Origin: a bacterium
GTDB taxonomy: Bacteria; SZUA-182; DTGQ01
Direction: 5' to 3'
Assembly: GCA_040755755.1 (NCBI GenBank)
Contig: JBFLZW010000033.1
Coordinates: forward strand, 124,001-188,000
DNA: 64,000 bases
A model generated the notes under the pieces. It saw only the letters and a list, made by a program, of their open reading frames with translations, was not told the origin of the DNA and made no database searches. The position numbers and the translations under genes were made by a program. Shown piece after piece: positions 8,994-54,600 of this stretch (within the stretch, counting starts at the first letter, position 1; the number at the start of each line of letters is the position of its first letter).

Positions 8994-9695
8994 ATGAAGA
9001 AAATTGCCAGTATTTTATTTGCGGTATGTTTATTGTTTGCCCTGAGCAGCAAGGTTAACGCTTATTGGGAAAGCGGGAATCTTATTGAGGTTATCTACAA
9101 TGAGGTTTCCGGGTGGGAGATAGGAAGGGATCTTGGCGCGATCAGCTCAATGGGATCCGCAATACATGTACCTATTGCGGCGCAGCCGGGTGCCTGGGTA
9201 GCTTTTTTCGGGTATGATGGTGTGAGTGATGCTGACGGTATTAATTACTACTTTGCCACTACTGAAGATATGGTACCGTCAGTCAAGGGATCGGCCCAAT
9301 CTTCCTTTGTAAGCGGCTATAATGGTTGTGTTCTTAACAACTATAAGCTCGGCGACGTACCCGCGGATGGTATAACTGAGACCTTAACGAGTTTGTCGAA
9401 CTCTTATTGGGCAAAAATGGATTCATCGACTACCCGTGGTCAGTTTGCCGGTTTTAACAACGGATACGCTGAGGGTAAATTGGGTGAGGCTGCACTTACT
9501 GAGGCTGATCCCACCATGTACCTCTATCAGTTCAAAAAAACAGGGTCTACCACTGTTACGTTAATTCCAGGGCAGGGGACGGATTACCGGCTCGTGATTA
9601 ATCCTGTCAATCCTGTTCCAATTCCCGGCGGTTTCCTGCTTCTCGCTTCCGGCATTCTTGGCCTTGTCGGCATTAAAAGAAGATATTCTGCCTAA
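8994..9695 (+). CDS. VPIPG-CTERM exosortase substrate, paralogue of the 6405 gene product
   Basis: The 233-residue protein begins after GGAGATGAAAGA with a 23-residue signal peptide ending at VNA. Its body aligns with the first domain of the large protein upstream: LIEVIY, DLGAI, YFATTE, SYWAKMDS…GQFAGF, YQFKKTGS and LIPGQGT recur in the same order. The C-terminus is a textbook sorting signal: VPIPGG, a hydrophobic stretch of about 17 residues, then KRRYSA. Exosortases remove such tails after secretion, so this is a predicted client of the exosortase at 39.7 kb and is probably attached to or released into the exopolysaccharide matrix. The ligand or role of the shared domain is unknown. Confidence 0.85.
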   Translation: MKKIASILFAVCLLFALSSKVNAYWESGNLIEVIYNEVSGWEIGRDLGAISSMGSAIHVPIAAQPGAWVAFFGYDGVSDADGINYYFATTEDMVPSVKGSAQSSFVSGYNGCVLNNYKLGDVPADGITETLTSLSNSYWAKMDSSTTRGQFAGFNNGYAEGKLGEAALTEADPTMYLYQFKKTGSTTVTLIPGQGTDYRLVINPVNPVPIPGGFLLLASGILGLVGIKRRYSA

Positions 9696-9794: not shown

Positions 9795-11000
9795 ATGTCT
9801 AAGCGATGTTTGCAGGTATTGGTTATCGTCATGGCCATTTTAGCTATGGCTGGCAGATCAGGTGCCGCTACCATCAATATTAATATTTACGGCGCTTCAG
9901 CTCAGTACCTTTTCTGGAACGATGCTGCTGATAACTTTCTGGCCAGCATCGGCTGCACCAACATCCAGCAGGCTGAGGACAGCAGTAAAAAACATGGTAT
10001 AACCAAGGGCACCAAGGGTGCCGATACCTACTACATCCGGTATTCTTCCAAGGCATCCTTTGACGGAATTTATTCTTGCAAAGGTCAGGTGCCTCCTCCG
10101 GAAGTAGGCGGACAGCCTTCATGTGCAGGCAACCCCCGCAACCGTGAGATGGCAGACGAGAATAATACCAACTGGGCAACCAAGCTGGTAAATGGCCTTA
10201 AATGTGTTGAAGTGACCATTGGTGCTTCAGATGTTGGCGGTGAGTGCTTTGGCCAATATACCGAAGGTAAATTGAAAGGTCATTACGATAGAGCCAACCA
10301 GCCTTATGTTTACCGTAACGTCGGGCCAATTGATACAACCGGCATGACCATTTACAAGCCTCTGGTTGTACCGTTTGGCTTCTTTGCCAATACAGCTATT
10401 GAGACCGAGGTTTCCAACCTGACCAGGCTGCAGGCCGTACTGATTTTCGCCCGTAAGGCTTTTGTGTGGAGTGACTTTGGTCCAACCACCTACCCGGTAA
10501 AGGATATTGTTGCCTGTCTGCGCCATGCAGGTTCCGGAACCCATGCAACTCTGGATAATGTGGTCTTCAGGACAGATACCTGGCCTCTGGCCACCACTGA
10601 AGATGATTGGGGAGTGTGGTTCAATGACGGATCGTCCGACATGATGAGGTGCATCGAGCAAAATGGCGGATTTAGCACGGATACCGCTGCTGCGGTTGGT
10701 TATGCCGATGCAGACCAACTGGTTGGCACATCAAGCTATCCCCATGTCTATGCTCTGAATTATATGGGCGCATCCGCTGCCAAAGAAAACATCACCAACT
10801 GCGTCTATGATTTCTGGGCAGAACAGCATCTGTATGAATGCAATCCCAATGATTCGGTTACACATCCTATCGTTTTACAACTGATTGCTTATGCTTCCAA
10901 TCCAGCCAACCTTCCCGCCAGCAAAGCCGCTTACTGGGCAACCCAGTCTGAAATGCTCTGCGAGAAGGCAAACTGCCGCGCTTATCCTCAATTCAAATAA
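9795..11000 (+). CDS. Cysteine-rich PstS-like periplasmic binding protein
   Basis: A 24-residue signal peptide ending GAA precedes a domain that begins INIYGASAQ and contains RHAGSGTHATLD, matching the ligand loop style of the phosphate-binding (PstS-like) superfamily, although the canonical GAGATFP start is altered. The mature part carries eleven cysteines, unusual for PstS, which suggests disulfides. Ligand is uncertain; phosphate or another oxyanion is possible. No ABC permease or ATPase genes follow, so a role other than transport is plausible. A ribosome site AAGGAGA precedes the start. A hairpin lies downstream at 11045. Confidence 0.65.
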   Translation: MSKRCLQVLVIVMAILAMAGRSGAATININIYGASAQYLFWNDAADNFLASIGCTNIQQAEDSSKKHGITKGTKGADTYYIRYSSKASFDGIYSCKGQVPPPEVGGQPSCAGNPRNREMADENNTNWATKLVNGLKCVEVTIGASDVGGECFGQYTEGKLKGHYDRANQPYVYRNVGPIDTTGMTIYKPLVVPFGFFANTAIETEVSNLTRLQAVLIFARKAFVWSDFGPTTYPVKDIVACLRHAGSGTHATLDNVVFRTDTWPLATTEDDWGVWFNDGSSDMMRCIEQNGGFSTDTAAAVGYADADQLVGTSSYPHVYALNYMGASAAKENITNCVYDFWAEQHLYECNPNDSVTHPIVLQLIAYASNPANLPASKAAYWATQSEMLCEKANCRAYPQFK

Positions 11001-11044: not shown

Positions 11045-11075
11045 TCAGGGCCTCTCCTCACGGGAGAGGCCCTGA
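11045..11075 (+). terminator. Strong hairpin after the binding-protein gene
   Basis: TCAGGGCCTCTCC at 11045-11057 pairs perfectly with GGAGAGGCCCTGA at 11063-11075 around a five-base loop. No T-run follows on either strand, so it may act as an mRNA-stabilising or attenuating stem rather than a classical terminator. It separates the binding-protein gene from the TPS operon. Confidence 0.5.
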
Positions 11076-11129: not shown

Positions 11130-13127
11130 ATGACAGACCGAAAGAAAAAATTTTCTGCCCCCGTTTTTCCACTCTTCCTAATCGCCTCCCTTTTCCCCTT
11201 CTTCTCTGGCTGCAGCGGTGCTCATCAGCACCTGATCGTAAAAAAGGGTGACCTTGCCCGGGTGAATTACACCTGCCGGGTCCCTGATGGCGACGTAGTT
11301 GCCACCACTTCAAAAAGAATCGCCGAGGATAACACCTCGTATCCGAAATCCCCGGTTTTTACCCATCGCCAGGTGTATGGCCCTTCCGTCCTCACGGGTG
11401 GCCAGGAGATTGTAACTTCGGAAGACGGTTTTCTCAAGGAGTTTGAGAAAACCATTGAAGCCAGGCTCTCTCAGTTGATTGTCGGGACTGAAGTGGGAAA
11501 GGAATACAGTTTTGAGATTGACGCTAACACGCCAGCCAATCTGAAAGATGAGGACCGGTTCCTGCAGATGGCCAGAGTCAGAAAAAGGCCGAAAGAGAAG
11601 CGGATGCCCAGGGATTATTATCTGAAACTCAGCAAGGGTCTTGAGCCTGAAGCGGGCCAGCGGGTCGAGGTGGAGCCGGGGCTTTGGGGAAAGGTAATCT
11701 CTCTGGACGGGAAAGATGTCCTCGTTAAGATTCTGGCTCAGCCAGGCTCCCGCATCCCCACACCTCCCTTTGGCCAGGGACTGGTCAGCGAGAAGGAGGA
11801 TTATTACGAGATCGAAATTGAAGCCCGGGTTGGAGACCTGATAAAAGCCGGGCCGTATACAGGAAGAGTCGTTGAGGTAAACGATCAGGTCATTATTTCC
11901 GACTTTGCTCATCCCTTTGGCGGGGAAATGTTGACCTGTGAGGTCAAAGTGGAGGCTGTCGATCCCCCCGGCGCATCCGGGAGAGCACTGCAAGCACTCC
12001 AGCAGGCGGTCGATAAGGCGCGGCAGAGTGAAACAGGAAATGCTGATATACATCTGAATCAAAGTGGCCTTCCGGAAGACCCGAACAGGGTGCAGCCGGG
12101 AGATCTGATTCTGGCTGATTATACCATTTCCCTGGAAGACGGACAGGTTTACCGTACGAGCCGGGAATCGGTCGCTCATGATCCAAACAGGGTAAAAATG
12201 CCGGAGTATCAGGAACCCAGACAGTTTCTTCCGCTGGAAATCATTGCCGGTGAGCCATCCGATATTCCGGGTTTATCCGAAGCCTCGGTGGGGTTGCCCG
12301 TTCATGGGAAAAAAACAATAACCATACCGGCTGATAAGGCTTTTGGTCCTCCCGGCAGTCAGGAGATAAAAAAATTTCCGCTGAACAAACGCCTTCCCCG
12401 GACCATGAACCTGTCTCCGGAGCAGTACGTTCAAAAATTCAAGATGTTTCCCAGCCTCGATGCCCGTGTTCCCCTGACTCCCTACTTCGAGGCGGTCGTA
12501 ACCGAGGTTACTCCTCAATATGCCCGGCTTTCGGCGGTTATTGAAGACGGGAAGCAGTACGAAGACCCCTTTGGGACAACCGGAGTCTTTCTGGATGGAA
12601 ATCAGGTCGTAATTTCCCTGCAGCCCCGAATAGGCGCGACTTTCGAAATGGAAGGGAAGAAAGGGATAATCACGGAGGCGGATGAGGATAATTTTACCGT
12701 CGATTTCCGGCACCCTCTGGCTGGCAGGAACATCGTGCTTGATTTTGAAGTAACTTCTCTCACCAAAGCATCGAAACTGAAAAAAGAAGAACTGCCCTGG
12801 CAGGAGAACCACGATCAGGGTCTTGACACTGCCGGGCGGGAAAATAAACCTATTGTACTGTTTCTGTACGCAGACTGGTGTCCCTGGTGCCAGAAGATGC
12901 TCCAGGAAACCTACCGGCATCCCCTGATGAAAACCCTGGCTGATAAATTCGTCTGGCTGAAGATTAATTCTGAGAAGGAAAGCAAATATAAAGCTCTGTA
13001 TCAGCAGGACGGGTTTCCTCTGACTGTCCTTTTGGACTCACAGGGGAAAATGGTAAAAAAATTTGATGGCTTTATTCCAGCAACTGCATTGAGGAGGGAA
13101 CTGGATAATTGTTTAGAGGGGTACTAA
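11130..13127 (+). CDS. Lipoprotein with two SlyD-like FKBP domains and a CPWC thioredoxin domain
   Basis: Residues 1-28 form a lipoprotein signal (FFSGC, Cys28). Two tandem segments (about 35-270 and 320-560) each look like an SlyD-type FKBP prolyl isomerase with its inserted chaperone flap: they share KKGDLARVNY/QPGDLILADY, a VGTEVGKEY/VGLPVHGKK turn, and DFAHPFGGEMLTCEV/DFRHPLAGRNIVLDFEV endings. Residues about 575-660 are a thioredoxin-like domain with WCPWC (Cys584, Cys587) and cis-proline motif GFPL. This suggests a membrane-tethered periplasmic folding factor combining proline isomerisation with disulfide chemistry. Its frame overlaps the TpsB gene by 19 bases, so it probably serves the giant TpsA protein of the same operon. 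Confidence 0.78.
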   Translation: MTDRKKKFSAPVFPLFLIASLFPFFSGCSGAHQHLIVKKGDLARVNYTCRVPDGDVVATTSKRIAEDNTSYPKSPVFTHRQVYGPSVLTGGQEIVTSEDGFLKEFEKTIEARLSQLIVGTEVGKEYSFEIDANTPANLKDEDRFLQMARVRKRPKEKRMPRDYYLKLSKGLEPEAGQRVEVEPGLWGKVISLDGKDVLVKILAQPGSRIPTPPFGQGLVSEKEDYYEIEIEARVGDLIKAGPYTGRVVEVNDQVIISDFAHPFGGEMLTCEVKVEAVDPPGASGRALQALQQAVDKARQSETGNADIHLNQSGLPEDPNRVQPGDLILADYTISLEDGQVYRTSRESVAHDPNRVKMPEYQEPRQFLPLEIIAGEPSDIPGLSEASVGLPVHGKKTITIPADKAFGPPGSQEIKKFPLNKRLPRTMNLSPEQYVQKFKMFPSLDARVPLTPYFEAVVTEVTPQYARLSAVIEDGKQYEDPFGTTGVFLDGNQVVISLQPRIGATFEMEGKKGIITEADEDNFTVDFRHPLAGRNIVLDFEVTSLTKASKLKKEELPWQENHDQGLDTAGRENKPIVLFLYADWCPWCQKMLQETYRHPLMKTLADKFVWLKINSEKESKYKALYQQDGFPLTVLLDSQGKMVKKFDGFIPATALRRELDNCLEGY

Positions 13128-14761
13128 AAATCATCGGTAAGACCCTGCTCCTCCTGTTCATCGTCATGATTATTGGCGGCACATCTTCAGGAGCGGGTGC
13201 AGAGGTGCAGGAGGATGCTCTTCCGGAGGAAGAGAAGGTTACTTTTCAGATCAGGGAATTCAGCATTGAGGGGAACACGCTTTTGGATGACAGTGAGATC
13301 GAACGTGCAATTTCAATATATAAGGGAAAAAACAAAACCGATGAAGATGTAGAACGGGCAAGGTCAGACCTCGAAAGCCTCTATCACCGGAAAGGGTATC
13401 CGACCGTACTGGTAAATATCCCGGAACAAACCGTAGAGAAAGGAGTAATCAGGATCGAGGTTATTGAAAGCAGGATCGGCACGGTGACAATCACCGGAAA
13501 CGAGTACGTCACCAAAAAGAAGATCCTGAGGCAATTATCCGGTTTCCATCCCGGCGCTATCCTGTATATGCCCACGGTGCAGGAGCAATTGGGCCGCATC
13601 AGCAGCAATCCTGACCTTCAGGTGAAACCGGTCCTGATACCGACAAGGGAATTAGACATTATCGATGTCGAGCTGAAAGTGCAAGACCGGCTTCCTGTTC
13701 ACGGGTCTTTCGAGCTGAATAACCGCTCGACTCATACCACTCCCGATTTACGGACCACGGCATCGCTTCGGTACGACAATCTCTGGCAGCAGGACCATTC
13801 CCTGGCTGTTCAATACCAGACCTCACCGGAAGAGCCGGATGAGGTTCAGTCCGTCTATATTTCCTATGTCCTTTCACCTCCCTGGGATTACCGGCAGGGA
13901 ATGGCCTTCTACCATATAAAATCAGACAGCGAGACAACCACGGCAGGGGATATTCAGGTTCTCGGAAAAGGGAGGATTACCGGATTCAGATATCTCATAC
14001 CCTTCCCTGCCTCCGAGCGCTGCCAGCACACAGCTTCCCTGGGGATCGATTATAAGGATTTTGACGAGACCATAGGCTTTAAAAATAACGACAATAATTT
14101 GAAAACTCCTATCCAGTATGCTCCCCTCTTCTTATCCTACAGTGCATCGCTCCCGGATTCGCATGGCTCAACGACCCTGAGCACTTCGTTTAACATGGTC
14201 TTCCGGGGGCTTTTGACCGAACAAAAAGAATTCGAAGCCAAACGCTATCAGGCAAAAGGCAACTATCTGTTTCTGACCGCCAAAGCCGAGCGGTCTTCCA
14301 AATTGCCCGGGGATGCCGGTCTCCTGCTCAGGCTGGATGGACAACTGGCCAATCAGCCATTGATTTCCAACGAACAATATCCTGCCGGAGGAGTTGATAA
14401 CCTCCGGGGGTATAAGGAAAGCGAAGAGCTTGGTGATAATGCGATTCATTTCACCCTGGAGATGCAAAGTCCCAACCTTTTTCAACGGCTGGGATTCCGG
14501 AAAGCGGGTAATCTCACGCTCCACGCTTTCTATGACGGAGCGATTCTGCAGGTGCTTGACCGGTTGAGCGAGGATAGCGAAGGAAGCACCGTGAAAAGTA
14601 AAAATGCGGGCATTACCCTTCAGGGTGTGGGTGCCGGTTTGCGGGGTGGGATTGGTAATCACTTCAAGTATGGTTTTGACTGGGGAGTGGCTCTCAATGA
14701 TACGGATTTGACTGAAAAGGGAGATACCCGGATGTACTTTAATCTCCTGTATCAATTTTAA
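13109..14761 (+). CDS. TpsB outer-membrane transporter (ShlB/FhaC family)
   Basis: This 550-residue Omp85-superfamily two-partner secretion pore has a signal peptide (about 1-31), two POTRA-type domains (FQIREFSIEGNTLL from about 46, and VTITGNEYVTKKKILRQL from about 125), and a C-terminal beta-barrel ending in a terminal aromatic (LLYQF). The conserved barrel-lumen motif appears as LRGY near residue 431. Start: TTG 13109, inside the 3' end of the preceding gene and 12 bases after GGAGG; the next ATG would cut through the signal sequence. The cognate exoprotein gene follows 12 bases downstream. Confidence 0.88.
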   Translation: MFRGVLKIIGKTLLLLFIVMIIGGTSSGAGAEVQEDALPEEEKVTFQIREFSIEGNTLLDDSEIERAISIYKGKNKTDEDVERARSDLESLYHRKGYPTVLVNIPEQTVEKGVIRIEVIESRIGTVTITGNEYVTKKKILRQLSGFHPGAILYMPTVQEQLGRISSNPDLQVKPVLIPTRELDIIDVELKVQDRLPVHGSFELNNRSTHTTPDLRTTASLRYDNLWQQDHSLAVQYQTSPEEPDEVQSVYISYVLSPPWDYRQGMAFYHIKSDSETTTAGDIQVLGKGRITGFRYLIPFPASERCQHTASLGIDYKDFDETIGFKNNDNNLKTPIQYAPLFLSYSASLPDSHGSTTLSTSFNMVFRGLLTEQKEFEAKRYQAKGNYLFLTAKAERSSKLPGDAGLLLRLDGQLANQPLISNEQYPAGGVDNLRGYKESEELGDNAIHFTLEMQSPNLFQRLGFRKAGNLTLHAFYDGAILQVLDRLSEDSEGSTVKSKNAGITLQGVGAGLRGGIGNHFKYGFDWGVALNDTDLTEKGDTRMYFNLLYQF

Positions 14762-14773
14762 AGGAAATCCTGA

Positions 14774-17700
14774 ATGATGACAGATTTCAGACAGAAAAAG
14801 TTCAGAAAAAAATCTCTGGTTTTTCTCATGATTTTCCATCTCTGCCTCCTGCACCTTCCCGCCTTTGGAGAGCCTTTGATTCCCGGTTACTACGGCGATC
14901 CGGTGAAATTCACGCCCCGTCCTCCCGATCCTGTTTGCGTGCCCCGAGGTATCATACAAACAGAAGGTGTATCCGGCGTGGAGTATCCGGCTGACAATCA
15001 GGCTATCATCCACCAGAATGACAAAAAAGCTATTATCGATTGGGAGACCTTCAATATCGGCAGGGAATCGTATACGCATTTCGATCAGCAGGGACAGACC
15101 GGCTGGGCGATTTTGAACCGTATTCATGATAATAAACCCAGTCAGATTTTCGGACAGCTTACCGCGGATGGAAAGGTATACTTGATCAACCAGAACGGTA
15201 TTCTCTTTGGACCCGGGTCCCGGGTTAATGTCCATTCTCTGATAGCCTCCTCGTTAAATATCAATGATGAAGATTTCCGGCAGGGCATATTGAAATTCAA
15301 CGCTGATCCTTCTTCTAAAGCCGTTGTTTCCAATCATGGGAATATAGAAACACCTGATGGAGGCTCTGTTTTCTTATTCGGGACATCAGTTGAAAACAGC
15401 GGGACCATCGATTGTCCGATGGGACAAGTTGGCCTTGCAGCCGGAACGGCGATTGAGCTTGTTACCCCATCCGGCCTGGATACATCGCGGCCTGGCAAGA
15501 TAGTAAAAAATTCTGGCGTCAATCCGGGTACGGCGGTGAATTTCGAGAATGGCCGGATCAGTGCGGATCTTGGCCTGGCAGGTATGTATGGCAAGACAAT
15601 CAACCAGCAGGGCTTAATACGGTCTGTAACCGCGGTGAAGAGAAATGGAAACATCGAATTGCTGGCTACTGATAAAGTAGCCACCGGGGCGAAAAGTATC
15701 ACTGCCTGTCCGGTGAGTGATTCATCGGAAAAGGTTCATCAATCTTTCCCTTTCATGAAAAGCAGTATCACCATTGGAGGCTGGGACCCATCCATCGATT
15801 CAGCCAGCGGGAGCGGAATGGCACGGGTCAACACGGTCGAACATCTGGGGAGTATCGAAGCCCCGGCAGGACAGGTGAATATCACCGCAGATACGAGAGT
15901 TTACCTGGGGGAGGAGAGCATGATCGATGTCAGTGGCCAGTGGGTCGGACGTCCGGGTGAAACGAACCTGATCGAGACAAAACTGAACAGTGTCGAATTG
16001 AGGGATGATTTTGGGCAAAAGACCGGCCCGCTCAAGGGAGAAACGATCACCTTCAATGCCAACAGCGGCTCATCGATCGGCAATGTTTCCGGCTCCCTGA
16101 GCTCTGAAGAGCAGACAGCTCTTGAGCGCTGTTCAATGGGCGGGGATATCTCCATAGAATCCTTTTCAGGGGATATTATCTTGAGAAAGGGATCCCTGGT
16201 CGATTTTTCCGGGGGCGGAACTCTGTATAGCCGGAGCTTTGGAGAGACCACGAAATTGTTAGCCGGGCATACTGTCTACGATATCAGCACTGCTCCCCAA
16301 TGGATTCAATATGACAAAGTGCTGGGATTTTTCCGCAAGGAGTATCCACGATTTGGAGTCTGGAAGGACTATCAGGGCCTCTATTATGGCGGGATTGCAC
16401 CCGTTATGGAATACCAGCCCTCTTACATCGAAGGTGGTAATGCAGGATCGTTAATTCTGAAAGCCAGAAGACTGGTTTTAGATGGACAGTTGCATGGTTC
16501 AGCCTTCAGGGGAATTTTTCAGACCGAGTTTTCCCAACCCCTGGATGAATTCGGTTTTACCACCACCAGAGGAGTGGTCCAGCCCAAAGGAGGAACCCTT
16601 GAGATTGGCTATTATGATTTTAAGACCGGTATCGACAACAGGGATCTGTATACGGATGAAATCGTTGTCCAGTCCCAGGTGCAGCCCCTGGCGGAGGATT
16701 TCGCGCCAGGCGACTCCCTGTCCGGGACTTTTTCCACTACGTATATCCCGGAATACCTGTTGAACACTGCCGGATTGGCGGATATTAAACTTTACAGCAA
16801 TACTGGCATAACTACCGGGAAAGACACCCGCATCACCCTTCCTCCCGGCGGAAGTTTCCAGGCCGCGGCGCGAAGCATTGTCCATCAGGGGGAAATAACC
16901 GCCCCCGGAGGTTTTATCCGTTTCGACAATGACGATAACATTACCTCATTTGAAACCACCGCCTTGGGTCAGCCCAATAATCACTATATCCCTTTGCCGG
17001 GCCATCTGCCCGAAGGGATTCATCTGAAAGAGGGAAGTATCGTAACTGCGGCTGGAGAGAAGATCGATTATCTGCTTCCACCAGCCCTGAGCGGCTTACC
17101 GGAGGGTGGAGACATCCGGATTTTTGATAAAACAAGCTCTCAGGGCGGTATCCATATCGATCGGGGAGCCCTCCTCGATGTCAGCGGCGGATATGTCACC
17201 TCCCCGAAAGGAGAGATTTCCGGCGGCGGGGCCGGGCTTTTGGATTTGCGGAGCCTGCATCTTTCCCTGGCGGGTGATTTGCGGGGGCACGCTCTGTACG
17301 GTCAGACCGGCGGTACTCTTTCTCTCCACACCGGTGATATCCGGGTAGTTCCGAATACCAGTTCCCAACAGGAAAGTACAGACCATCAGGAAAATACCGG
17401 AGAGGAATGCATCCTGCCGGATAATTTTTGGGCTTCCACAGGCTTTACCCATATCGGCCTGATCAGCGAAAACGATATTCATATTCAGGAGGGATCGATT
17501 CTTGCTCCCTCACAGGTAAAACTGGCACAGCCTCTGCCGAGAATAACTCCTTTTTCCCCTGAGGCATCTATTATCGGAACGGTGAACAAACCTGATCTCA
17601 CTCCATTGTCCTTTATCACCGTACCCTTCGATGAGCTTGGTTCATCTTCCGTGACCTGTAAAGCCGGTGTGCCGGTGGATAGAACCGGCATCACCGGTGA

Positions 17701-20700
17701 TATCAATCTCGAGGCTGCCGTCTCGGTGGATTCAGGGGCGAAGATACAGACCTCGATCGGCGGGAAGGTCGAGGTAAAAGCTCCCTCGATCACCATAGCG
17801 GGGAGCCTGGAAGCCCCGGCAGGCACTATCTCTGCTTCGGCCAATGACCTTGTCATCGGTGAGACCGGCCGGATTACCGCCGCCGGTTTTAATAAACCGG
17901 ATAAAAAACCCCGCGCCCAGGGTCTGCCGACAGGATTTACTTCGCTCTCCGGCGGAAGTGTCAAACTGGAGGCAACCGGGAACCTGATCCTGGAGGATGG
18001 ATGTCTGATCGATGTTTCAGGACCATCACCTGCCTTTACGCTGATACAAAACGCTGACGGGTCTTTTACAACTGTGCCCACTGCCGGTGATGCCGGAAGC
18101 CTTACCCTGTCCTTTGGCGGATACCTGAATCCCCGGATAGATTCCGAAGAAAAAACCGTGCAGGGCAGGCTGGATGGCGTGACACTGCTCGGACACGGGA
18201 AAATGGATGGAGCAGCCGGGGGGAAATTCATCATCGAGCGAAAGGACGTTACGGGCGGGTTGAACATTTATGCTGATGACATGAAACGCATCGTGCAGAA
18301 AAGCTCTCCCGATCAAAGCGGCGGATTTGATGCCCTTGAATTGAGGAGCTGGAGCGGGATCGAGTTTGCCGAATCACTGAATCTGACCCCGGAGCGAAGC
18401 CTTACCCTCGATGCTCCGCTGATCAAGGCAGCAGGAGCGGAGCAGGTCTATCTGCGTGCTCCCTGGCTTCGCCTGGTGAACAGCGCTCAATATAATTTTC
18501 AGCCCTCACAAACGGGAGAGGCAATGATACAATGTTCAGCCAACTGGATCGACACCGAGGGCGACATTCAGTTTTCCGGCTTCCAGGATGTCCAATTGAA
18601 CGCCGAACATGATTTGACCTTGAGCGACAGGCATACCGTTTTCCTGGGATTTGACCTCGGCTGGAAGGGGGAATTGAATACCGCCGGTAATCTGACCCTG
18701 CGGGCTGAGCGGATTTATCCGACCACTCTTTCCCAGGTTACCATTCATTCAGACCGCAAAGTTACCATCCTGCCCGGAGAAAACACTCCTTCCAGTACTA
18801 TCTATTCTGCCGGGGGAAAACTGACGATCGAAGCGGACAGTATCGAGCACAGGGGAACACTGGCTGCGCCGATGGGTGAAATTGCCCTCTGTCAGAATGG
18901 AGAGACAGGGGAGATCTCTCAGTCCCGGATATACCTGGCGGCAGGAAGCAAAATCACCACAACGGGTGAAGCTTCGGTTAATTACGGAGACCTCAGCAAT
19001 ACCTCATGGACTATTCCCGACAAGAGCGATAAGAACGAACCGAGTAAGAAACAGGCTGCAACCCTGCCGCATAACTCAGTATCCCTGAACAGCTCGGAGA
19101 TTATTTTCGACAAGGACGCTCTGATCTCAGCCGATGGCGGGGGGGAAATCTTTGCCTATCAGTTTTTGCCGGGTATCGAGGGTTCCCGTAATCCCTTATC
19201 AGCGAGCGGGCGTTCTGTCATTCTCCCTGACAATAGCATTGTGCTGCCGGGAAAGGCCGTATACCTTGAGGGTGTCGAGGGAGTGCCGCAAGGGATATAT
19301 TCCCTGCTGCCGGAGCAGTTTGCCTTTATGCCCGGTGCTCTGGTTATCACGGATCTTGGTCCGCATTACACCATCGATACCTTGATGCTGTCCAAAGAAG
19401 GAAGTCCGGTAACCAGGGGATTTACGACTATCCGGGACACCGGCTTCACAGCAACGGTCCCGCATATCTACTCGATAAGGCCGGCAGAAAAGGTAGTGCA
19501 GGAGGGTAATTTTACTCTCGCTCACCTGACAGCCGGAAATGCCGGTGAAGTAACGATCAGGGGGAATACGTCGGTTCTGGAAGGAACAGTGAGTGGAAAA
19601 CCGCTCCCTGGTTTTGAAGGAAACCGGATAGAACTGGGCGGCAAAACGGTATTCGTCGGGCAGTTCTCCGAGGCGCTTCTGCCTGGATTCTCCTTTGACG
19701 AAGATATGCCTGCGTTTTTGAAGGACAAACTCTACATCGATGCCGGGGGGCTGTCAGGAAAGGGATTTAAAGAAATCGTCCTGGGCGGTGTGGAACTGAA
19801 CGGGAAGGAATACCAGGGAACTGCTAATATCACGATCCAGGATGGGGCGCACCTTGCGGGAACGAATCTTACCCTGGCGGCAACGCAGGACATTACGGTT
19901 CAGTCAGGCGCACTGCTTCAGGCTGAAGGAGAGATTTCGAAAGGTGAAGGCTCTATAAGTTTGATATCCCCCAAGGGCAGGGTGACTATCGAGGAGAACG
20001 CCAGCGTGCATGCCAGTAATGTCCTCAACCTGGAATGTAAAAATATCGCCTCCTCAGGCGATATTCAGGTGGATAACAGCACGCTGAACCTGATGGGAGA
20101 GCGGATCGAGGTTACGGCTGACCCGCTTAACCCGCAGAATGAGTCAAGCCTGGTCTTCACTCCCCAGGAGCTTGCCGATATTACCAGGGGTTTTACTCAC
20201 CTGAGCCTTACCGGCCGCAGGGAGGTGGTTTTTCACACTGCGCTCGACCTTGATTTCGGTGACGCTTTCCTCATTCTGAACACGCCAAGGATGAGTGGCC
20301 GGGGGCTGAGTGAAGGCGATGCCGTTTCTCTCACCTCCTCGAAAAGAATCAGCCTTTTGAATACCGGGCTGCCAGGCGAAGAGAGCGAGCTGCCGGATAC
20401 CGCTACCCTGTCCCTTACGGCTGACGAGCTCGTTATCGGGCAGGGAGATATCTCTTTTGACGGTTTTCGGAAAATCAATCTTACCAGTGGAACGGACCTG
20501 GTCTTCAGCGGAAAGGGCTCCCTTGCAGCCAGCGGAGATGAATTGAATATCAAAGCCGCACGGGTGACTGCATCTTCCTCCCAGGCCGGGGAACCAGATT
20601 CCCCGAATAACACCGGCGTACCTTACGAAGTTGCCCGGTTCACGGTCAACGCCCCGGACAGCCGGGTAGCGATAACCAGGAACGGTCAGGGCACAGCCGG

Positions 20701-23700
20701 GGAGAACACCACTCCAGGGGGAAGCCTGAGCGTTGCAGCTCAGAATATCATCCTGGATGGCCTTATCGAGGTTCAAAGCGGCCAGATTGCCCTTGATAGC
20801 AGGGGAGAAGCCGGTGGAATTTTCCTCAACCAGGGATCTCAGATTCTGGCTCAGGGAAGCGATTATGCTCCGGGGGGAAAGGTTTCCCTCTCCACCGAAG
20901 CGGGGCAAATAGATATTGCGGATGGCGCACTCGTCGATGTCTCGGCAGGTGATCAGGGCGATGCGGGAACTATCAGCCTGTATGCACCCCAGGGGAAAGT
21001 CGTTCTGGATGGTGAAATCAAAGGAAATGCCAGGGATTCCGAGGCCAGGCGCGGTCGCGGCGGCAGGTTCACACTCGATACCACCCGGTACGGTCAAGAG
21101 GATGGGCCGGTGAATCTTGCCCAACTGAACGGCAAGCTAAAACGAGGCGGATTCGACCGGGCGATTGACCTTCGTTTCCGGGCTGGCGATATAGCGCTGC
21201 CGGAGAACGAGCAACTTTCCGCCCATTCGGTCAAGCTCGTGGCCGATGGCGGCAACCTCGATATTTTTGGCATTATCGAGGCCCCTGCCGGGAACACGGA
21301 AACCGGAAGGGTGGAATTGTACAGCCGTGATAACCTTACCCTGCATGCCAGTAACCAGGTTGGCGATGAAGTAACCGGGATATACGCTCCGGCTGGGGAG
21401 GTCATCCTCGGCACGGCCCGAGGGACAGTGATTCTGGGAGGGGTTGAACCAGGGGAAAAAGCTCTGATCGATGTAGGCGGTGAGGATGATGGAGAGAAGA
21501 GCGGTGGCACGGTTACCATCCGTGTTCCCCGGGAGAACCTGGATAACCTGCTGAACAGCCAGGCGACGGTACAGGGAGCCTCAGAAGTCATAGTCGAGGC
21601 TGTCAAGGCGTATGACTTCGCTTCCGGCGTTATCGGTGCCGGGGATATCGACAAGATGCGTGAAGATACGGCAACCTTCATGTCAGGCTTGTCCCTCGAA
21701 GATGGCGGCACGCTTCATATTCGCCCCGGCATCGAAATATCCCATCAAGGTTCGTTATCCCTTTCTTCAGACTGGGATTTTACTGCCTGGCGGTATAATG
21801 GTGAGCCGGGCAGTCTCTCTTTGCGGGCGGGCAATGATCTGAACATCGCCGGTCATCTCCTGGATAAAGGGAATGATTCCACCTGGCGGTTTGATCTGGC
21901 AGCAGGATCCGATCGGGACAGCGCAGATCCTCTGGCGGTTATCAAAGGAACGGGGAACCTGAACGTTACCGATAATACAGCAGTTTACACGGAAAACGCA
22001 CCCATTTCCTTTGCCTCGGGCAATAATACCACCATAGGGCATTTAAGCAGCAGTTATGCAGTATTCAAAGACATTGAAGTAGAGAAAATTCCCTTCAATA
22101 GGATTCCGTTTAATATGGCTTCAGAAAGTGGCCGGATACAGGGCACAGTGGAAGGCTCGCTGATTCTGAAAGGCGGGGCCATTCAAACCGGAACGGGTGA
22201 TATTCAGGTTGAAATCGGGAACGATCTCGATCTGGATTCATATTTTGACACCAAAGGTAAAACGGTCTTAGGTTCAATCCGTACTCTGGGAGAGCATCCT
22301 TCACCTGCTCCAAGCCAGGCATATTGGGAATATACCAATGGAGGCGGTATCAGCATCGAGGCAGGCGGAACTGTCGGAGCTCTCCAATTGATTAATAAAG
22401 ACGCATGGGATTGGGCAAACAATTATATCGTTATCGATGATAACGGAGACAAGGTAACCAGGACAGCGTGGTCGGCAAGTTACGAGAGAGACCTGCCCAC
22501 CCAGGGGCTGGCGGCCATGGCCGGGGGGGATGTAAAAGTCTTTGCGGGCAGCGACCTGTATTGTCAGATTGGAACGTTCGGCAGCGGGGATTGTGAAGTT
22601 TTTTCAGGGGGAGATATCGACGGAAAGTTTCTGGTGAAAGAGGGACGAGGGTATTTCTCCGCAATGGGAAATGTCGGTGGCAACATCCAGGATCTGACTT
22701 TTGAAGTTTTCGATTCCCAAATATCAGTAACCTCTCAGGGGAATATCCACCTGGGTACAATTGTCAATCCCACTACCGTGAGGGATGGTTTCAATGTTGA
22801 TTCTCTCTGGAACCTTACCTATTCTCCTGATGCGCGGGTTACCCTGAGAGCTGAGAGCGGGGATGTAAGCATTTCCGGGAAAACCGGCAACCTGTCGATA
22901 ACATATCCCACCGATAAATCGAAAAAACCTCTTCTTCCCCCTACCCTCAAGGTGTATGCCGGAAGGGACATTCATTTATCAGGCAACGTTACGCTGACAC
23001 CTTCGGAAACGGGGAATCTCGAAATGATAGCCGGAAGAGATATCGATGGATTATATTCCACAGGGGATACTTTCACCCGGTCATCGATTCTCCTCTCGGA
23101 CCTTGAACCATCAACGGTATACGGCGAACAATCAGGAGAGGAAGGTATCAATATCGGCAGCGTTATACTCAATAATCTCGTCAACTCTCATTTACATGCG
23201 GCCAATCCGGTTCATCGAAACGATACTGCTGCGGTCACTATCCATGCTGGCCGTGACCTTAAGGACATGAGTTTGTATTTGCCGAAAAAAGCGGACATTT
23301 TTGCCTCCGGGGATATCAGAGACATCGAGTATATCGGCCAGAGCATTCTGCCAACTGATGCAACCCGCATCAGGGCAGGAGAGGATATCTTGTTCAGTAC
23401 ATCGTCGCTTGTTACCGGCAGCACGGGGATCGAGCATGGCGGTCCGGGATTTCTGCTGGTCCAGGCGGGAAACAGCATCGATCTGGGAGCCAGTAAAGGG
23501 ATTCAGTCTGTGGGGCACTATTATAACCCTGCTCTTGGTCTGGGAAAGAGCTCACTGGCTGTTGTCTCCGGGTATTCCCTGGATCTGGATAACGATAAAA
23601 TCAGTACCTTTTTCCAGGATTTAAAAACCAAGGCTACCGAGTATTGCAGGCTGCTCAATGAGGAGGGAAGTAATCGGGCTGCCCTGAAGCTGGAGGAAAT

Positions 23701-24592
23701 ACGGCAAGGACTTATCGATCCCTTCCTGCAATCGGCCAAGCCAGGAGATGGTCATATTAACATGTTTGACTCACAGATCAATGCAAGCGGAGAAATGGGA
23801 GATCTGGCCATCATAGCCAGGGGAGATATTAATATAGGCAGAACAACCTTTCCCACTGATAACCAAAGCACAAAGAATTCCGGTATCTATACGGCAGCAG
23901 GTGGCATGATCAATATTTTTGCCGGGGGTGATGTTAATGTCAATGAATCCCGGTTAATGACCTTCAGGGGAGGAGATATCCTGGCCTGGAGTGATCTGGG
24001 AAATATCAATGCCGGAAGGGGCTCGAAGACGGCGATCAATACCGAACCGCCGAAACTCGATATCGACGAAAACGGTGAAATCATTGGAGTAAAATTCGAG
24101 CCTCCCGCAGTCGGGAGTGGTATCCGCACTTTAACTTATGATCCCGATGGATTTGAAGGCCCCCTTGAAGCGCCGCTTGCCGGAGATGTCTTCCTGTTTG
24201 CCCCGACCGGTGAAATCGATGCCGGTGAGGCTGAAATTGTGGGCAGAAACATCAGCATGGCAGCACGAAGCTATAAGAACGTGCAGAATATCAGCTTTTC
24301 CGAGGGCTCGATAGGAGTTCCATCGACAGGAGAAAGCTCTGCCAACATCGGTGCTCTGACCGGGGCCGGGAATCTTGCACCTCAAACAAAGCTCAGCGAA
24401 GAGTCCTCGGTTACGGATTCGCCTGCCCAAAGGCTGGCGAGCAGTATAAAGCAGGCAGAGGAGGCTTTCTCCTTCAATAAAGATATCGACGTGGAAGTTA
24501 TCGGATTTGAAGAGGGATCGGAAGGGAAAAAAGAGAAAAAGGATAAGGAAGAAGATAAGGATGACAGAAAGGAACAGAAAGGTGGCAAGTAG
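14774..24592 (+). CDS. Giant TpsA exoprotein, filamentous-haemagglutinin type
   Basis: This 3,272-residue secreted adhesin-like protein is exported by the TpsB encoded just upstream. After a basic signal peptide (about 1-33) comes the TPS/haemagglutination domain (about 55-300) with INQNGILFGPGSRVNV, the usual NxNG-type motif near 140. The rest is dominated by short beta-helix turns of the GGxIxIxA kind. A charged helical insert (about 2940-2990) interrupts the helix near the C-terminus, followed by an RGD at about 3015. The C-terminal 27 residues are almost entirely Lys, Glu and Asp. Such proteins usually act in adhesion, biofilm or contact-dependent functions. No toxin domain or exosortase tail was seen. 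The start has AAGGAAAT upstream; ATG 14777 is an equal alternative. Confidence 0.88.
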   Translation: MMTDFRQKKFRKKSLVFLMIFHLCLLHLPAFGEPLIPGYYGDPVKFTPRPPDPVCVPRGIIQTEGVSGVEYPADNQAIIHQNDKKAIIDWETFNIGRESYTHFDQQGQTGWAILNRIHDNKPSQIFGQLTADGKVYLINQNGILFGPGSRVNVHSLIASSLNINDEDFRQGILKFNADPSSKAVVSNHGNIETPDGGSVFLFGTSVENSGTIDCPMGQVGLAAGTAIELVTPSGLDTSRPGKIVKNSGVNPGTAVNFENGRISADLGLAGMYGKTINQQGLIRSVTAVKRNGNIELLATDKVATGAKSITACPVSDSSEKVHQSFPFMKSSITIGGWDPSIDSASGSGMARVNTVEHLGSIEAPAGQVNITADTRVYLGEESMIDVSGQWVGRPGETNLIETKLNSVELRDDFGQKTGPLKGETITFNANSGSSIGNVSGSLSSEEQTALERCSMGGDISIESFSGDIILRKGSLVDFSGGGTLYSRSFGETTKLLAGHTVYDISTAPQWIQYDKVLGFFRKEYPRFGVWKDYQGLYYGGIAPVMEYQPSYIEGGNAGSLILKARRLVLDGQLHGSAFRGIFQTEFSQPLDEFGFTTTRGVVQPKGGTLEIGYYDFKTGIDNRDLYTDEIVVQSQVQPLAEDFAPGDSLSGTFSTTYIPEYLLNTAGLADIKLYSNTGITTGKDTRITLPPGGSFQAAARSIVHQGEITAPGGFIRFDNDDNITSFETTALGQPNNHYIPLPGHLPEGIHLKEGSIVTAAGEKIDYLLPPALSGLPEGGDIRIFDKTSSQGGIHIDRGALLDVSGGYVTSPKGEISGGGAGLLDLRSLHLSLAGDLRGHALYGQTGGTLSLHTGDIRVVPNTSSQQESTDHQENTGEECILPDNFWASTGFTHIGLISENDIHIQEGSILAPSQVKLAQPLPRITPFSPEASIIGTVNKPDLTPLSFITVPFDELGSSSVTCKAGVPVDRTGITGDINLEAAVSVDSGAKIQTSIGGKVEVKAPSITIAGSLEAPAGTISASANDLVIGETGRITAAGFNKPDKKPRAQGLPTGFTSLSGGSVKLEATGNLILEDGCLIDVSGPSPAFTLIQNADGSFTTVPTAGDAGSLTLSFGGYLNPRIDSEEKTVQGRLDGVTLLGHGKMDGAAGGKFIIERKDVTGGLNIYADDMKRIVQKSSPDQSGGFDALELRSWSGIEFAESLNLTPERSLTLDAPLIKAAGAEQVYLRAPWLRLVNSAQYNFQPSQTGEAMIQCSANWIDTEGDIQFSGFQDVQLNAEHDLTLSDRHTVFLGFDLGWKGELNTAGNLTLRAERIYPTTLSQVTIHSDRKVTILPGENTPSSTIYSAGGKLTIEADSIEHRGTLAAPMGEIALCQNGETGEISQSRIYLAAGSKITTTGEASVNYGDLSNTSWTIPDKSDKNEPSKKQAATLPHNSVSLNSSEIIFDKDALISADGGGEIFAYQFLPGIEGSRNPLSASGRSVILPDNSIVLPGKAVYLEGVEGVPQGIYSLLPEQFAFMPGALVITDLGPHYTIDTLMLSKEGSPVTRGFTTIRDTGFTATVPHIYSIRPAEKVVQEGNFTLAHLTAGNAGEVTIRGNTSVLEGTVSGKPLPGFEGNRIELGGKTVFVGQFSEALLPGFSFDEDMPAFLKDKLYIDAGGLSGKGFKEIVLGGVELNGKEYQGTANITIQDGAHLAGTNLTLAATQDITVQSGALLQAEGEISKGEGSISLISPKGRVTIEENASVHASNVLNLECKNIASSGDIQVDNSTLNLMGERIEVTADPLNPQNESSLVFTPQELADITRGFTHLSLTGRREVVFHTALDLDFGDAFLILNTPRMSGRGLSEGDAVSLTSSKRISLLNTGLPGEESELPDTATLSLTADELVIGQGDISFDGFRKINLTSGTDLVFSGKGSLAASGDELNIKAARVTASSSQAGEPDSPNNTGVPYEVARFTVNAPDSRVAITRNGQGTAGENTTPGGSLSVAAQNIILDGLIEVQSGQIALDSRGEAGGIFLNQGSQILAQGSDYAPGGKVSLSTEAGQIDIADGALVDVSAGDQGDAGTISLYAPQGKVVLDGEIKGNARDSEARRGRGGRFTLDTTRYGQEDGPVNLAQLNGKLKRGGFDRAIDLRFRAGDIALPENEQLSAHSVKLVADGGNLDIFGIIEAPAGNTETGRVELYSRDNLTLHASNQVGDEVTGIYAPAGEVILGTARGTVILGGVEPGEKALIDVGGEDDGEKSGGTVTIRVPRENLDNLLNSQATVQGASEVIVEAVKAYDFASGVIGAGDIDKMREDTATFMSGLSLEDGGTLHIRPGIEISHQGSLSLSSDWDFTAWRYNGEPGSLSLRAGNDLNIAGHLLDKGNDSTWRFDLAAGSDRDSADPLAVIKGTGNLNVTDNTAVYTENAPISFASGNNTTIGHLSSSYAVFKDIEVEKIPFNRIPFNMASESGRIQGTVEGSLILKGGAIQTGTGDIQVEIGNDLDLDSYFDTKGKTVLGSIRTLGEHPSPAPSQAYWEYTNGGGISIEAGGTVGALQLINKDAWDWANNYIVIDDNGDKVTRTAWSASYERDLPTQGLAAMAGGDVKVFAGSDLYCQIGTFGSGDCEVFSGGDIDGKFLVKEGRGYFSAMGNVGGNIQDLTFEVFDSQISVTSQGNIHLGTIVNPTTVRDGFNVDSLWNLTYSPDARVTLRAESGDVSISGKTGNLSITYPTDKSKKPLLPPTLKVYAGRDIHLSGNVTLTPSETGNLEMIAGRDIDGLYSTGDTFTRSSILLSDLEPSTVYGEQSGEEGINIGSVILNNLVNSHLHAANPVHRNDTAAVTIHAGRDLKDMSLYLPKKADIFASGDIRDIEYIGQSILPTDATRIRAGEDILFSTSSLVTGSTGIEHGGPGFLLVQAGNSIDLGASKGIQSVGHYYNPALGLGKSSLAVVSGYSLDLDNDKISTFFQDLKTKATEYCRLLNEEGSNRAALKLEEIRQGLIDPFLQSAKPGDGHINMFDSQINASGEMGDLAIIARGDINIGRTTFPTDNQSTKNSGIYTAAGGMINIFAGGDVNVNESRLMTFRGGDILAWSDLGNINAGRGSKTAINTEPPKLDIDENGEIIGVKFEPPAVGSGIRTLTYDPDGFEGPLEAPLAGDVFLFAPTGEIDAGEAEIVGRNISMAARSYKNVQNISFSEGSIGVPSTGESSANIGALTGAGNLAPQTKLSEESSVTDSPAQRLASSIKQAEEAFSFNKDIDVEVIGFEEGSEGKKEKKDKEEDKDDRKEQKGGK

Positions 24593-24602
24593 GAAAAGGT
24601 AC

Positions 24603-26069
24603 ATGAAACGACGAAAGGGTTTGGGAATAATCGTTGCTTTGACTTTCATCTGCTTATCGACGGGCACGGGATTCTGTACCGACAAAAATTCACCACCGGC
24701 GTATGCTGACAGTGGCGATGAATCGACTGCCGAACAGGGTGAAAACCTTTCTGAGAGGCTGAAAAGTATCGAGCTCAAGCTGGAGGCTCAGGAGAAGATT
24801 ATGTTAGCGGAAGAGCAGATACTGGCGGATCAGGGGAGTCTGCTGAACACGATGATCAATGAAGGCAAGTTGCCGGAGTGGGTCAAAAAGGTGAAATTGA
24901 GCGGTGATTTTCGCCTGCGCTATCAAAGCGATATGTTTGGCCAGGATAATCCTGAGCTGCTCAAACCGGATGATCCCCGCACCATTATGAACACCCAGGA
25001 GGACCGGGACCGGCTCCGCATCCGTTTCCGGTTGGGATTGACAGCCAAGGTGAACGATCGGATGGAGATCGGCGCCCGGCTGACGACCGGTAACGAAAAA
25101 GAGCCTGTCTCGACCAATGAGACACTCGGAGATTACTCCAACAAAGACGGCCTGGTCATTGACAGGGCTTATCTGCAGATACGGCCGGTCAACAGGGCGG
25201 CATTCTGGTTTGGAAGAATGCCAAACCCATTCGACTCCACTGATCTTGTCTGGGATAAGGATCTTAATCTGGAGGGGTTGGCTCTTACCGCTACTGCCAA
25301 TGACCCGAAAGCCCTGGTTGAAAAAAATTGGGACCTTTCTGTCACCGCCGGTTTTTTCCCGCTCCAGGAACTGGAATACTTCTCGGATGACAAGTACCTG
25401 TATGGAGGTCAGATCGGAGCGAAGTACAAGCCGGTAACAGCCCTGGGATTGAAGCTTGCCGTTGCCTATTATGATTACCGGAATATCGAAGGTAAGTTCA
25501 ACGATCCCGCAGGTCCTGGCGATGAGACGGATTACACCCTGCCCGCCTTCCAGCAGAAAGGGAATACCCTGTTTAATATCAATACGAAAATGAATGACAA
25601 AGGCGAGATTGCGAAGAAACTCGCCCTGGCCTCCGATTTCAATCAACTGGACATCAATTCCTCGATCGAGATTGCCATAAAAACTATTGCTGTCCAGCTC
25701 ATGGCTGATTATGTCAAAAACCTTGGATTTGACAAGGACAAAGTACGGGAGAGAACCGGGGTCGAGGTTCCTGAAGAGACCGAAGGATACCAGGTTGGCG
25801 TAGCCGTTGGACACCGGGAAGTGAAAGACCTGTGGCAATGGAACGGTTCTTTGTCTTTCAGGCATCTGGAAGCTGACGCCGTGATTGACGCCTTTACCGA
25901 CTCCGATTTCCATCTTGGCGGAACCAATGCCGAGGGCTGGATCCTGGGAGTCCAACTGGGAGTTGGGAAGAATGCATGGTTATCCTTCAACTGGCTGACC
26001 GCGGATGAGATCGGCGGCCCGCCCCTGGCAGTTGATGTAATGCAGATCGATTTGAATGCCGCTTTCTAG
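24603..26069 (+). CDS. Putative outer-membrane porin
   Basis: The start is ATG 24603, following AGGAAAAGG; ATG 24561 and 24507 lie inside the TpsA gene and would add a very basic leader. The 488-residue product has a signal peptide (about 1-27), a coiled-coil (LSERLKSIELKLEAQEKIML) and then a barrel of alternating beta strands (VKLSGDFRLRYQSD, DRLRIRFRLGL, MEIGARLTTGN) ending in a C-terminal Phe (IDLNAAF). It fits the putative porin family widespread in Deltaproteobacteria. It follows TpsA by ten bases and may contribute an additional outer-membrane pore to the same operon. Substrate unknown. Confidence 0.8.
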   Translation: MKRRKGLGIIVALTFICLSTGTGFCTDKNSPPAYADSGDESTAEQGENLSERLKSIELKLEAQEKIMLAEEQILADQGSLLNTMINEGKLPEWVKKVKLSGDFRLRYQSDMFGQDNPELLKPDDPRTIMNTQEDRDRLRIRFRLGLTAKVNDRMEIGARLTTGNEKEPVSTNETLGDYSNKDGLVIDRAYLQIRPVNRAAFWFGRMPNPFDSTDLVWDKDLNLEGLALTATANDPKALVEKNWDLSVTAGFFPLQELEYFSDDKYLYGGQIGAKYKPVTALGLKLAVAYYDYRNIEGKFNDPAGPGDETDYTLPAFQQKGNTLFNINTKMNDKGEIAKKLALASDFNQLDINSSIEIAIKTIAVQLMADYVKNLGFDKDKVRERTGVEVPEETEGYQVGVAVGHREVKDLWQWNGSLSFRHLEADAVIDAFTDSDFHLGGTNAEGWILGVQLGVGKNAWLSFNWLTADEIGGPPLAVDVMQIDLNAAF

Positions 26070-53556: not shown

Positions 53557-54600
53557 CTACTTCAATATAGGTTCACCATTATACGTAACCGATTTGATGT
53601 TCGCTTCGGCCTTGACTAAGGCAGCCTTGGGCAGCGTTGCATATTTCAGAGGTCCGGCATATTCCTGCCCCCCATGGATCATCCACCACAGCAGCTTCAC
53701 GGTCCGGTCGGCCTGCTCCCGTGATCTTCCCTGGTAATTCTGCTCCTTATACAGGAGCAGCCAGGTAAAACTGCTGATCGGATACCCGTCAGGAGCGTCG
53801 GTGTCGGTGATCGATACCCTGGTATCATCCGGTATGGCGATATTGGCAGCCAGGCTTGTTGACTGAAGACCCGCCTTGACGAACACTCCATGTTTATTTT
53901 GAACAGAATCTACCGGCATACCATGCGCTAGGGCATAAGCCAATTCGACATAGCCGATACTCCCTAAAAACTGCTTCAGCAAACCGGCAACTCCGCCGTT
54001 TCCTTTGGCACCCACTCCTGTCGGCCAGTCAACGGCTTTGCCTCTGCCAATCTTTTCTTTCCACTCCCGACTTACCTTTGACAGGTAATCGGTGAAGATA
54101 AAGGTAGTTCCGCTTTCCTCGGACCGATGCACCACGACGATATTGAGGGCCGGGAGTTTTACTCCAGGATTTATGGCCTGTATGGCGGGATCATCCCATC
54201 GGGTGATTTTCCCGATGAATATATCTGAAAGTAAAGCGGGAGTGAATTTCAGAGCAGGATTTCCCGGCAGGTTATGCGTTACCGAGACTGCACCCAGACA
54301 TATGGGTATATGGAGGATATGGGAAGGGGTCTCCTTCATTTTCTCATCGCTGAGGAAGGCATCGGATGCTGCAAAGTCTACGTTTTGTTCAAAGAGATGC
54401 TTCTGCCCGGCACCCGATCCGACAGCCTGATAATTGATTCTGACCTGGAATTTTTGATAATATGCATCGAACATCTTTTCATAGAGAGGATGAGGGAAGG
54501 TTGCTCCTGCCCCGGCTAACTCCTGGCTTTGCGCTCCGGCCAACGGATATCCGCTGGTCAAAAGAGCTCCGAAAAGGAAAATCAGGAATATTCTTCTCAT
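53557..54600 (-). CDS. pstS: Phosphate-binding protein PstS
   Basis: The start is ATG 54600, six bases after GGAGG; the frame is open a further 19 codons. After a signal peptide (about 1-25) the mature protein begins [18 protein letters not shown], the classic phosphate-binding opening. [14 protein letters not shown] and [12 protein letters not shown] supply the other ligand loops. It binds inorganic phosphate in the periplasm. Unusually, no pstC, pstA or pstB follows; it sits between a hybrid sensor kinase and an HPt gene, so it may serve sensing rather than transport. The kinase frame overlaps its first 40 codons. Confidence 0.87.

Follow-up and report, generated by a model that had tools for sequence, protein, structure and literature searches.

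A lipoprotein that combines two SlyD-type units with a thioredoxin domain is encoded directly in front of the transporter gene of a DUF3739-type two-partner secretion (TPS) system in a 64,000-nucleotide stretch of bacterial DNA, here called the window. Computation established which domains it has and how they fold, in which order the genes lie, that it is tightly coupled to tpsB and co-occurs with a DUF3739 TpsA, and that the catalytic aspartate has been lost. The lipoprotein probably (at a rough probability of 0.6) acts as a dedicated periplasmic holdase of this TPS system and hands TpsA to TpsB. The genes and domains concerned are as follows:

8994–9695, + strand: VPLPA/PEP-CTERM surface protein, conserved upstream partner (NCBIfam; synteny)
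9795–11000, + strand: Cys-rich PstS-like (PBP-like) protein, conserved upstream partner (weak matches to PF12849 and TIGR02136; its homologues lie immediately upstream in loci of Desulfobacterota)
11130–13127, + strand: SlyD-SlyD-thioredoxin lipoprotein gene, 665 aa (ORF, Pfam, models, orthologues in 11 loci)
11130–11213, + strand: predicted lipoprotein signal peptide with lipobox Cys28 (FFSGC; Cys kept in 10 of 11 first units)
11235–11969, + strand: enlarged SlyD-type unit 1, residues 36–280 (AlphaFold, Foldseek, PDB profile search)
12087–12770, + strand: enlarged SlyD-type unit 2, residues 320–547, with a DF(N/R)HPLAG motif (Pfam FKBP_C, PDB profile, AlphaFold, Foldseek)
12783–13112, + strand: thioredoxin domain, residues 552–661 (Pfam Thioredoxin_7; Foldseek matches to Trx3 and DsbD-gamma)
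12879–12890, + strand: active-site motif C584-P-W-C587 (invariant Cys584; Ser in place of Cys587 in 3 of 10)
13109–14761, + strand: TpsB transporter (POTRA_2, ShlB), 550 aa, TTG start (ORF, Pfam; 19-base overlap with the lipoprotein gene)
14774–24592, + strand: TpsA exoprotein, 3272 aa, with the TPS domain at residues 73–297 and DUF3739 at residues 3066–3183 (ORF, Pfam)
24603–26069, + strand: putative outer-membrane porin (Porin_5, 1e-126), conserved cassette member, start placed at the ATG that follows the TpsA stop
62104–63915, + strand: DUF2341-LamG-ExbB proton-channel fusion (Pfam), adjoining TpsA in other genomes and displaced here

The genes following the lipoprotein form a two-partner secretion (type Vb) pair, in which a TPS-domain TpsA (PF05860, 7e-26; DUF3739, 2.5e-29) adjoins a TpsB with POTRA_2 (PF08479) and a ShlB barrel (PF03865). 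The three reading frames, the lengths of the lipoprotein and TpsA, the 19-base overlap with tpsB, and the 12 bases between the TpsB stop and the TpsA start were all found as given in the preliminary description. The two FKBP/SlyD-like units and the WCPWC thioredoxin domain named there were likewise recovered, with Pfam (unit 2 and thioredoxin), PDB profiles (both units), and AlphaFold/Foldseek (all three). Structure modelling returned an FKBP fold for both units, and neither came out without it; the top Foldseek matches were MjFKBP26, SlpA, and SlyD with a probability of 1.00.

The AlphaFold models represent halves of the lipoprotein that were built separately. Although unit 1 is too diverged to give a Pfam match, three tests agree that it is FKBP/SlyD-like. 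A profile search against PDB sequences matched SlpA (4dt4, 3.5e-8), the model (pLDDT 86.7) had MjFKBP26 as best Foldseek match (1.1e-8), followed by SlpA and SlyD, and hhalign aligned unit 1 with unit 2 over the whole length of unit 1 (99.9%, E 5.6e-35, 227 columns). Unit 2 was recognized by Pfam (FKBP_C at residues 319–413, 1e-7) and by the PDB profile search (3pr9, 1.9e-23), and the model of unit 2 together with the thioredoxin domain (pLDDT 88.1) matched MjFKBP26/SlpA/SlyD and thioredoxins/DsbD-gamma. The Foldseek TM-scores to the query were low (0.25–0.34), because each unit has a longer insert and the second model an extra domain, and the FKBP assignments rest on E-value and probability. 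In both units, two-part profile matches flank an insertion, the flap insert before the DFNHPLAG strand, which is about 75 residues longer than that of MjFKBP. Weak hints of an internal duplication inside the insert domain (60% in a profile comparison of unit 1 IFa with unit 2 IFb, none within unit 2) are not claimed as such. The C-terminal domain (Thioredoxin_7 at residues 557–636, 2.7e-12) has a thioredoxin fold with a cis-proline (Foldseek TMt 0.7–0.8 to thioredoxin and DsbD-gamma; Pro630 invariant). C49 and C270, located on the first and last strands of unit 1, are invariant in all 11 unit 1 sequences and are likely to form a structural disulfide.

SlyD-type inserts are established as chaperone domains for SlyD, SlpA, and FKBP26. 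As in these proteins, which gave the best Foldseek and profile matches, an FKBP core is combined with an inserted chaperone domain. Unlike them, the units described here are larger, occur in tandem, and are fused to a thioredoxin domain in a predicted secreted lipoprotein that has lost the catalytic Asp and has no His-rich tail.

The isomerase role that had been proposed earlier is doubtful, since this Asp is missing in every unit 2. At the position of FKBP12 Asp37 (SlyD Asp23), the ten unit 2 sequences have R, R, A, Y, V, Y, S, a gap, L, and Y; unit 1 is degenerate, with Asp in one of 11 sequences. We therefore regard it as improbable that the lipoprotein is an active prolyl isomerase, equivalent to PpiC/PA0699 and catalytically needed for the proline-rich TpsA (148 prolines), even though unit 2 keeps several FKBP pocket positions, such as Tyr331, Phe526, and Gly406, and PPIase-family genes of two unrelated folds recur in the cassette. 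A redox function towards TpsA, also part of the preliminary description, found no support as a general role. The second thioredoxin Cys is present in the window (CPWC) and replaced by Ser in G004, Desulfosarcina cetonica, and G339. In G315, TpsA is free of Cys, yet its partner lipoprotein retains CPWC; conversely, the TpsA of G004 has 15 Cys and its partner carries CQWS.

A full-length lipoprotein, 49% identical, occurs in a genome of the same order (G004; JAFGSM010000210.1), where the next genes encode, in order, TpsB, a TpsA of 3292 aa, a Porin_5-like protein, and proteins with a coiled coil and a dockerin, respectively. Scanning genome contigs with two peptide patterns yielded relatives in D. 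cetonica and in three MAGs, two of Desulfobacula and one of another deltaproteobacterium, and a search of 395 Desulfobacterota genomes added G120 (two copies), G216, G315, and G339. In all 11 loci, the window included, the SlyD pair is located directly before tpsB; the architecture was thus not found mostly away from tps genes. Where both ends were measurable, the gap between the lipoprotein and TpsB genes was −43 to +16 bases, even when tpsB and tpsA are 237–315 bases apart. Contig ends truncate several loci, and the assemblies contain interruptions in tpsA and tpsB of D. cetonica and in one SlyD2 of Desulfobacula. No relative of the lipoprotein was found in viral contigs and phages, and plasmids had partial single-domain matches only.

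The SlyD pair is fused in four of these loci (the window, G004, G216, and contig C118 of G120) and split into adjacent genes for SlyD1 and SlyD2-thioredoxin in the other seven. A joint alignment of fused and split proteins was discarded as it placed the second half of SlyD1 onto SlyD2, and the units were modelled separately. In FastTree phylogenies, both forms were interleaved: the window/G004 pair is fused, and the clade of G216, G120, and G339 has both. The fusion is therefore labile, and the halves act as partners. This pattern rules out the fusion itself as the novelty. Distances of the SlyD units correlated modestly with those of TpsB (r 0.35–0.40).

Strong SlyD1 matches (E < 1e-50) were obtained in exactly five of the 395 Desulfobacterota genomes (G060, G120, G216, G315, and G339). 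DUF3739 was detected in six, namely the same five and G426, in which it is a contig-end fragment with the contig stopping inside TpsA. The hypergeometric probability of this co-occurrence is about 8e-11 among the 395 genomes, a value not corrected for phylogeny. Among 386 wider genomes, lipoprotein and DUF3739 both occurred only in the window genome (G000) and G004, and three genus or family mates of the window genome (G001–G003) had neither. Hence, in about 780 sampled genomes the lipoprotein was never observed without a DUF3739 TpsA; the one apparent case of the reverse is the truncated G426 fragment. Other TpsA loci in G002, G004, G062, G216, G315, and G339 (for G062, its own loci only) had no such lipoprotein, indicating that the factor belongs to the DUF3739-type TPS and not to TPS systems generally. 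The lipoprotein was absent from the plasmids searched by tblastn and from the cassette stretches read for Pseudomonadota. Taken together, the adjacency in 11 of 11 loci, the matching phylogenetic profiles, and the absence from other TPS loci strongly support the earlier proposal of a lipoprotein dedicated to this one type of TPS system.

The main rival explanation holds that the lipoprotein aids outer-membrane protein assembly, with the TpsB barrel or the Porin_5 protein of the cassette, and not TpsA, as client. It would account for a coupling to tpsB that is always tight, also where tpsA is set further apart, and a Porin_5-like gene is present in the loci visible far enough downstream. However, other TPS loci of the same genomes have no such factor, so that TpsB generally folds without need of it, and we consider this explanation rather unlikely.

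A larger cassette of the Pdt type, equipped with a Ton motor of its own, has the TPS operon at one end, a context that could not be seen in the first reading. Downstream of tpsA in G061 and G315, genes for DUF2341-LamG-ExbB, ExbD, TonB, Porin_5, and a coiled-coil protein follow in that order and contiguously, and the same array is present in part in G060, G062, G063, G216, G339, and the G120 contig. The Pdt-type members DUF3739 TpsA, TpsB, DUF2341-ExbB, ExbD, TonB, and Porin_5 all occur in the window genome. Here, Porin_5 directly follows TpsA, and an exosortase/exopolysaccharide locus separates this part from the ExbB fusion about 37 kb away. Genes for ExbD, TonB, and the coiled-coil protein follow the fusion just beyond the window (contig C33 of G000, approximately 187.9–190.0 kb; L074 3914–6000). 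In G216, an open frame of 5,682 residues contains four DUF2341 domains (contig C4, 142758–152975). The cassette of that genome, which includes the FKBP-thioredoxin lipoprotein, also has a SurA N-terminal-domain protein without rotamase domain directly after the Porin_5-like gene (L077 6717–7406, − strand).

A described counterpart is the PdtA/PdtB cassette of P. aeruginosa (PA0690–PA0699), which belongs to the PUMA3/PhoB regulon and comprises pdtA, pdtB, exbB2-exbD2-tonB4, PA0696 (porin), PA0697, PA0698 (YbjN), and PA0699 (PpiC-type PPIase) under VreI/PhoB control (PMC2729926, PMC4971064, PMC7035377). In both systems, a TPS pair is accompanied by ExbB, ExbD, TonB, and additional envelope proteins that include a putative porin, and the Pdt operon also has a PPIase gene. 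Plasmid relatives in Pseudomonadota share the DUF3739 TpsA and DUF2341-ExbB seen here. In contrast to the lipoprotein, the Pdt PPIase is a PpiC-type parvulin, not an FKBP, and has no thioredoxin part; further differences are the distance of the Ton genes in the window and that no ECF/FecR regulator was seen near its operon. The window contains a genuine PstS gene (53557–54657, − strand). Another PstS-like gene and a regulator of the OmpR/PhoB type are located about 3–5 kb past the ExbB gene (L074 6946–8896). By analogy, these genes may point to a link to phosphate as in Pseudomonas Pdt. A candidate pho box upstream did not score above chance.

Cassettes of the same type were found in Pseudomonadota, including plasmids. 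According to Pfam, the cassettes of Methylosinus, Klebsiella, and Cupriavidus have a parvulin as PPIase; in Cupriavidus, its gene stands directly before tpsB. The cassette of the window has no PpiC-type PPIase gene and carries the FKBP-thioredoxin lipoprotein instead, which is most simply explained as a non-homologous occupant, of different fold, of a recurring chaperone/PPIase slot. No PPIase was present in the stretches read of the Aquabacterium and Methylomagnum cassettes.

A dedicated holdase is the best reading of the two SlyD-type units with their longer inserts, the lipobox, the coupling to tpsB, and the Foldseek matches to chaperone FKBPs. The analogous position of an unrelated PpiC isomerase in Pseudomonadota cassettes (Cupriavidus; PA0699) points the same way. 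According to this holdase model, the lipoprotein would be made in step with TpsB and be anchored by its predicted lipid, most likely at the outer membrane. Its two SlyD-type units would bind the long unfolded TpsA chain emerging from Sec, stop it from folding or aggregating, and pass it on to TpsB at the POTRA domains. The working part would be the insert-in-flap chaperone domain rather than proline isomerization. The thioredoxin domain may mainly be a binding or scaffold module, or may serve another client, for example the C49–C270 pair of the lipoprotein itself. Counting against a holdase, the Aquabacterium and Methylomagnum stretches indicate that the system can do without such a factor, and coupling that is tighter to TpsB than to TpsA could mean that TpsB is the client. 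The modest distance correlation between SlyD units and TpsB weighs on the same side. Also against the need for a holdase, secretion of FHA was unaffected in a par27 mutant of B. pertussis and required no chaperones when reconstituted in vitro (PMC8151025).

Par27 of Bordetella pertussis is a parvulin chaperone that binds FHA (PMC8151025). By description, it resembles our proposal for the lipoprotein as a PPIase-family chaperone of a periplasmic TpsA, but differs in its parvulin fold and is dispensable for FHA secretion in the mutant. BcpO, an accessory predicted periplasmic lipoprotein of Burkholderia bcpAIOB loci (PMC5422565), is likewise encoded in a TPS operon but, as described, comes from a different (CDI) system.

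A further explanation assigns the lipoprotein to the upstream genes, as a redox or isomerase folding enzyme for the Cys-rich PstS-like and VPLPA-CTERM proteins and not for TpsA. Both are conserved upstream partners in Desulfobacterota loci, the PstS-like protein is visibly rich in Cys, and the first thioredoxin Cys is invariant. However, a strong hairpin (11045–11075, z-score −5.8) lies between the upstream genes and the lipoprotein gene in the window, both upstream genes are on the opposite strand in G216, and Aquabacterium has a PEP-CTERM gene and a 426-aa gene at the same position without a lipoprotein. With the second thioredoxin Cys lost in three of ten sequences in addition, this explanation is distinctly unlikely. 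The hairpin (TCAGGGCCTCTCC...GGGAGAGGCCCTGA) is very stable and has no T run; it may serve in mRNA processing or attenuation.

Accessory genes in TPS operons are already known, as is a PPIase within this cassette type, whereas the tandem SlyD-thioredoxin lipoprotein as a factor in the chaperone slot of a TPS system appears to be new. No FKBP/SlyD factor in a TPS operon was described in titles or abstracts of the open-access literature. Reviews of type Vb secretion note that very few systems have been studied and that there is no clear energy source (PMC5422565, PMC8151025). The unfolded state of TpsA in the periplasm and the driving force of export are general questions of type Vb secretion. 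It is conceivable, if unlikely, that the system is an energized TPS in which the tandem-SlyD holdase loads unfolded TpsA onto TpsB and the dedicated ExbB-ExbD-TonB motor drives outer-membrane translocation or surface assembly with proton-motive energy. If true, this would add a proton-motive drive missing from the known two-component TPS model. Selection ties the putative tandem chaperone to a single transporter, and in other phyla the same slot is taken by a PPIase of different fold. The cassette offers a defined candidate for the holdase, occurs naturally in both split and fused form, and comes with a Ton motor, which makes the questions of holdase function and energetics testable.

Some further features of the region were noted. 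The Cys-rich PstS-like family, with its 'NLYGASAQYEFWTAAAPGFL' start, recurs near a VPLPA/PEP-CTERM protein and the TPS operon, and the exosortase of the window passes the NCBIfam cut-off for the VPLPA-specific XrtD. The 3' end of a XerA/XerC-like tyrosine recombinase gene (1367–2332, − strand) overlaps an opposite-strand tRNA-Arg(CCT) gene (1376–1452), likely marking the edge of an integrated element. Beyond the window, a CRISPR array of about 42 repeats (L074 13074–16700) lies beside a Cas1 gene (17051–18142; contig C33 of G000, approximately 197–202 kb).
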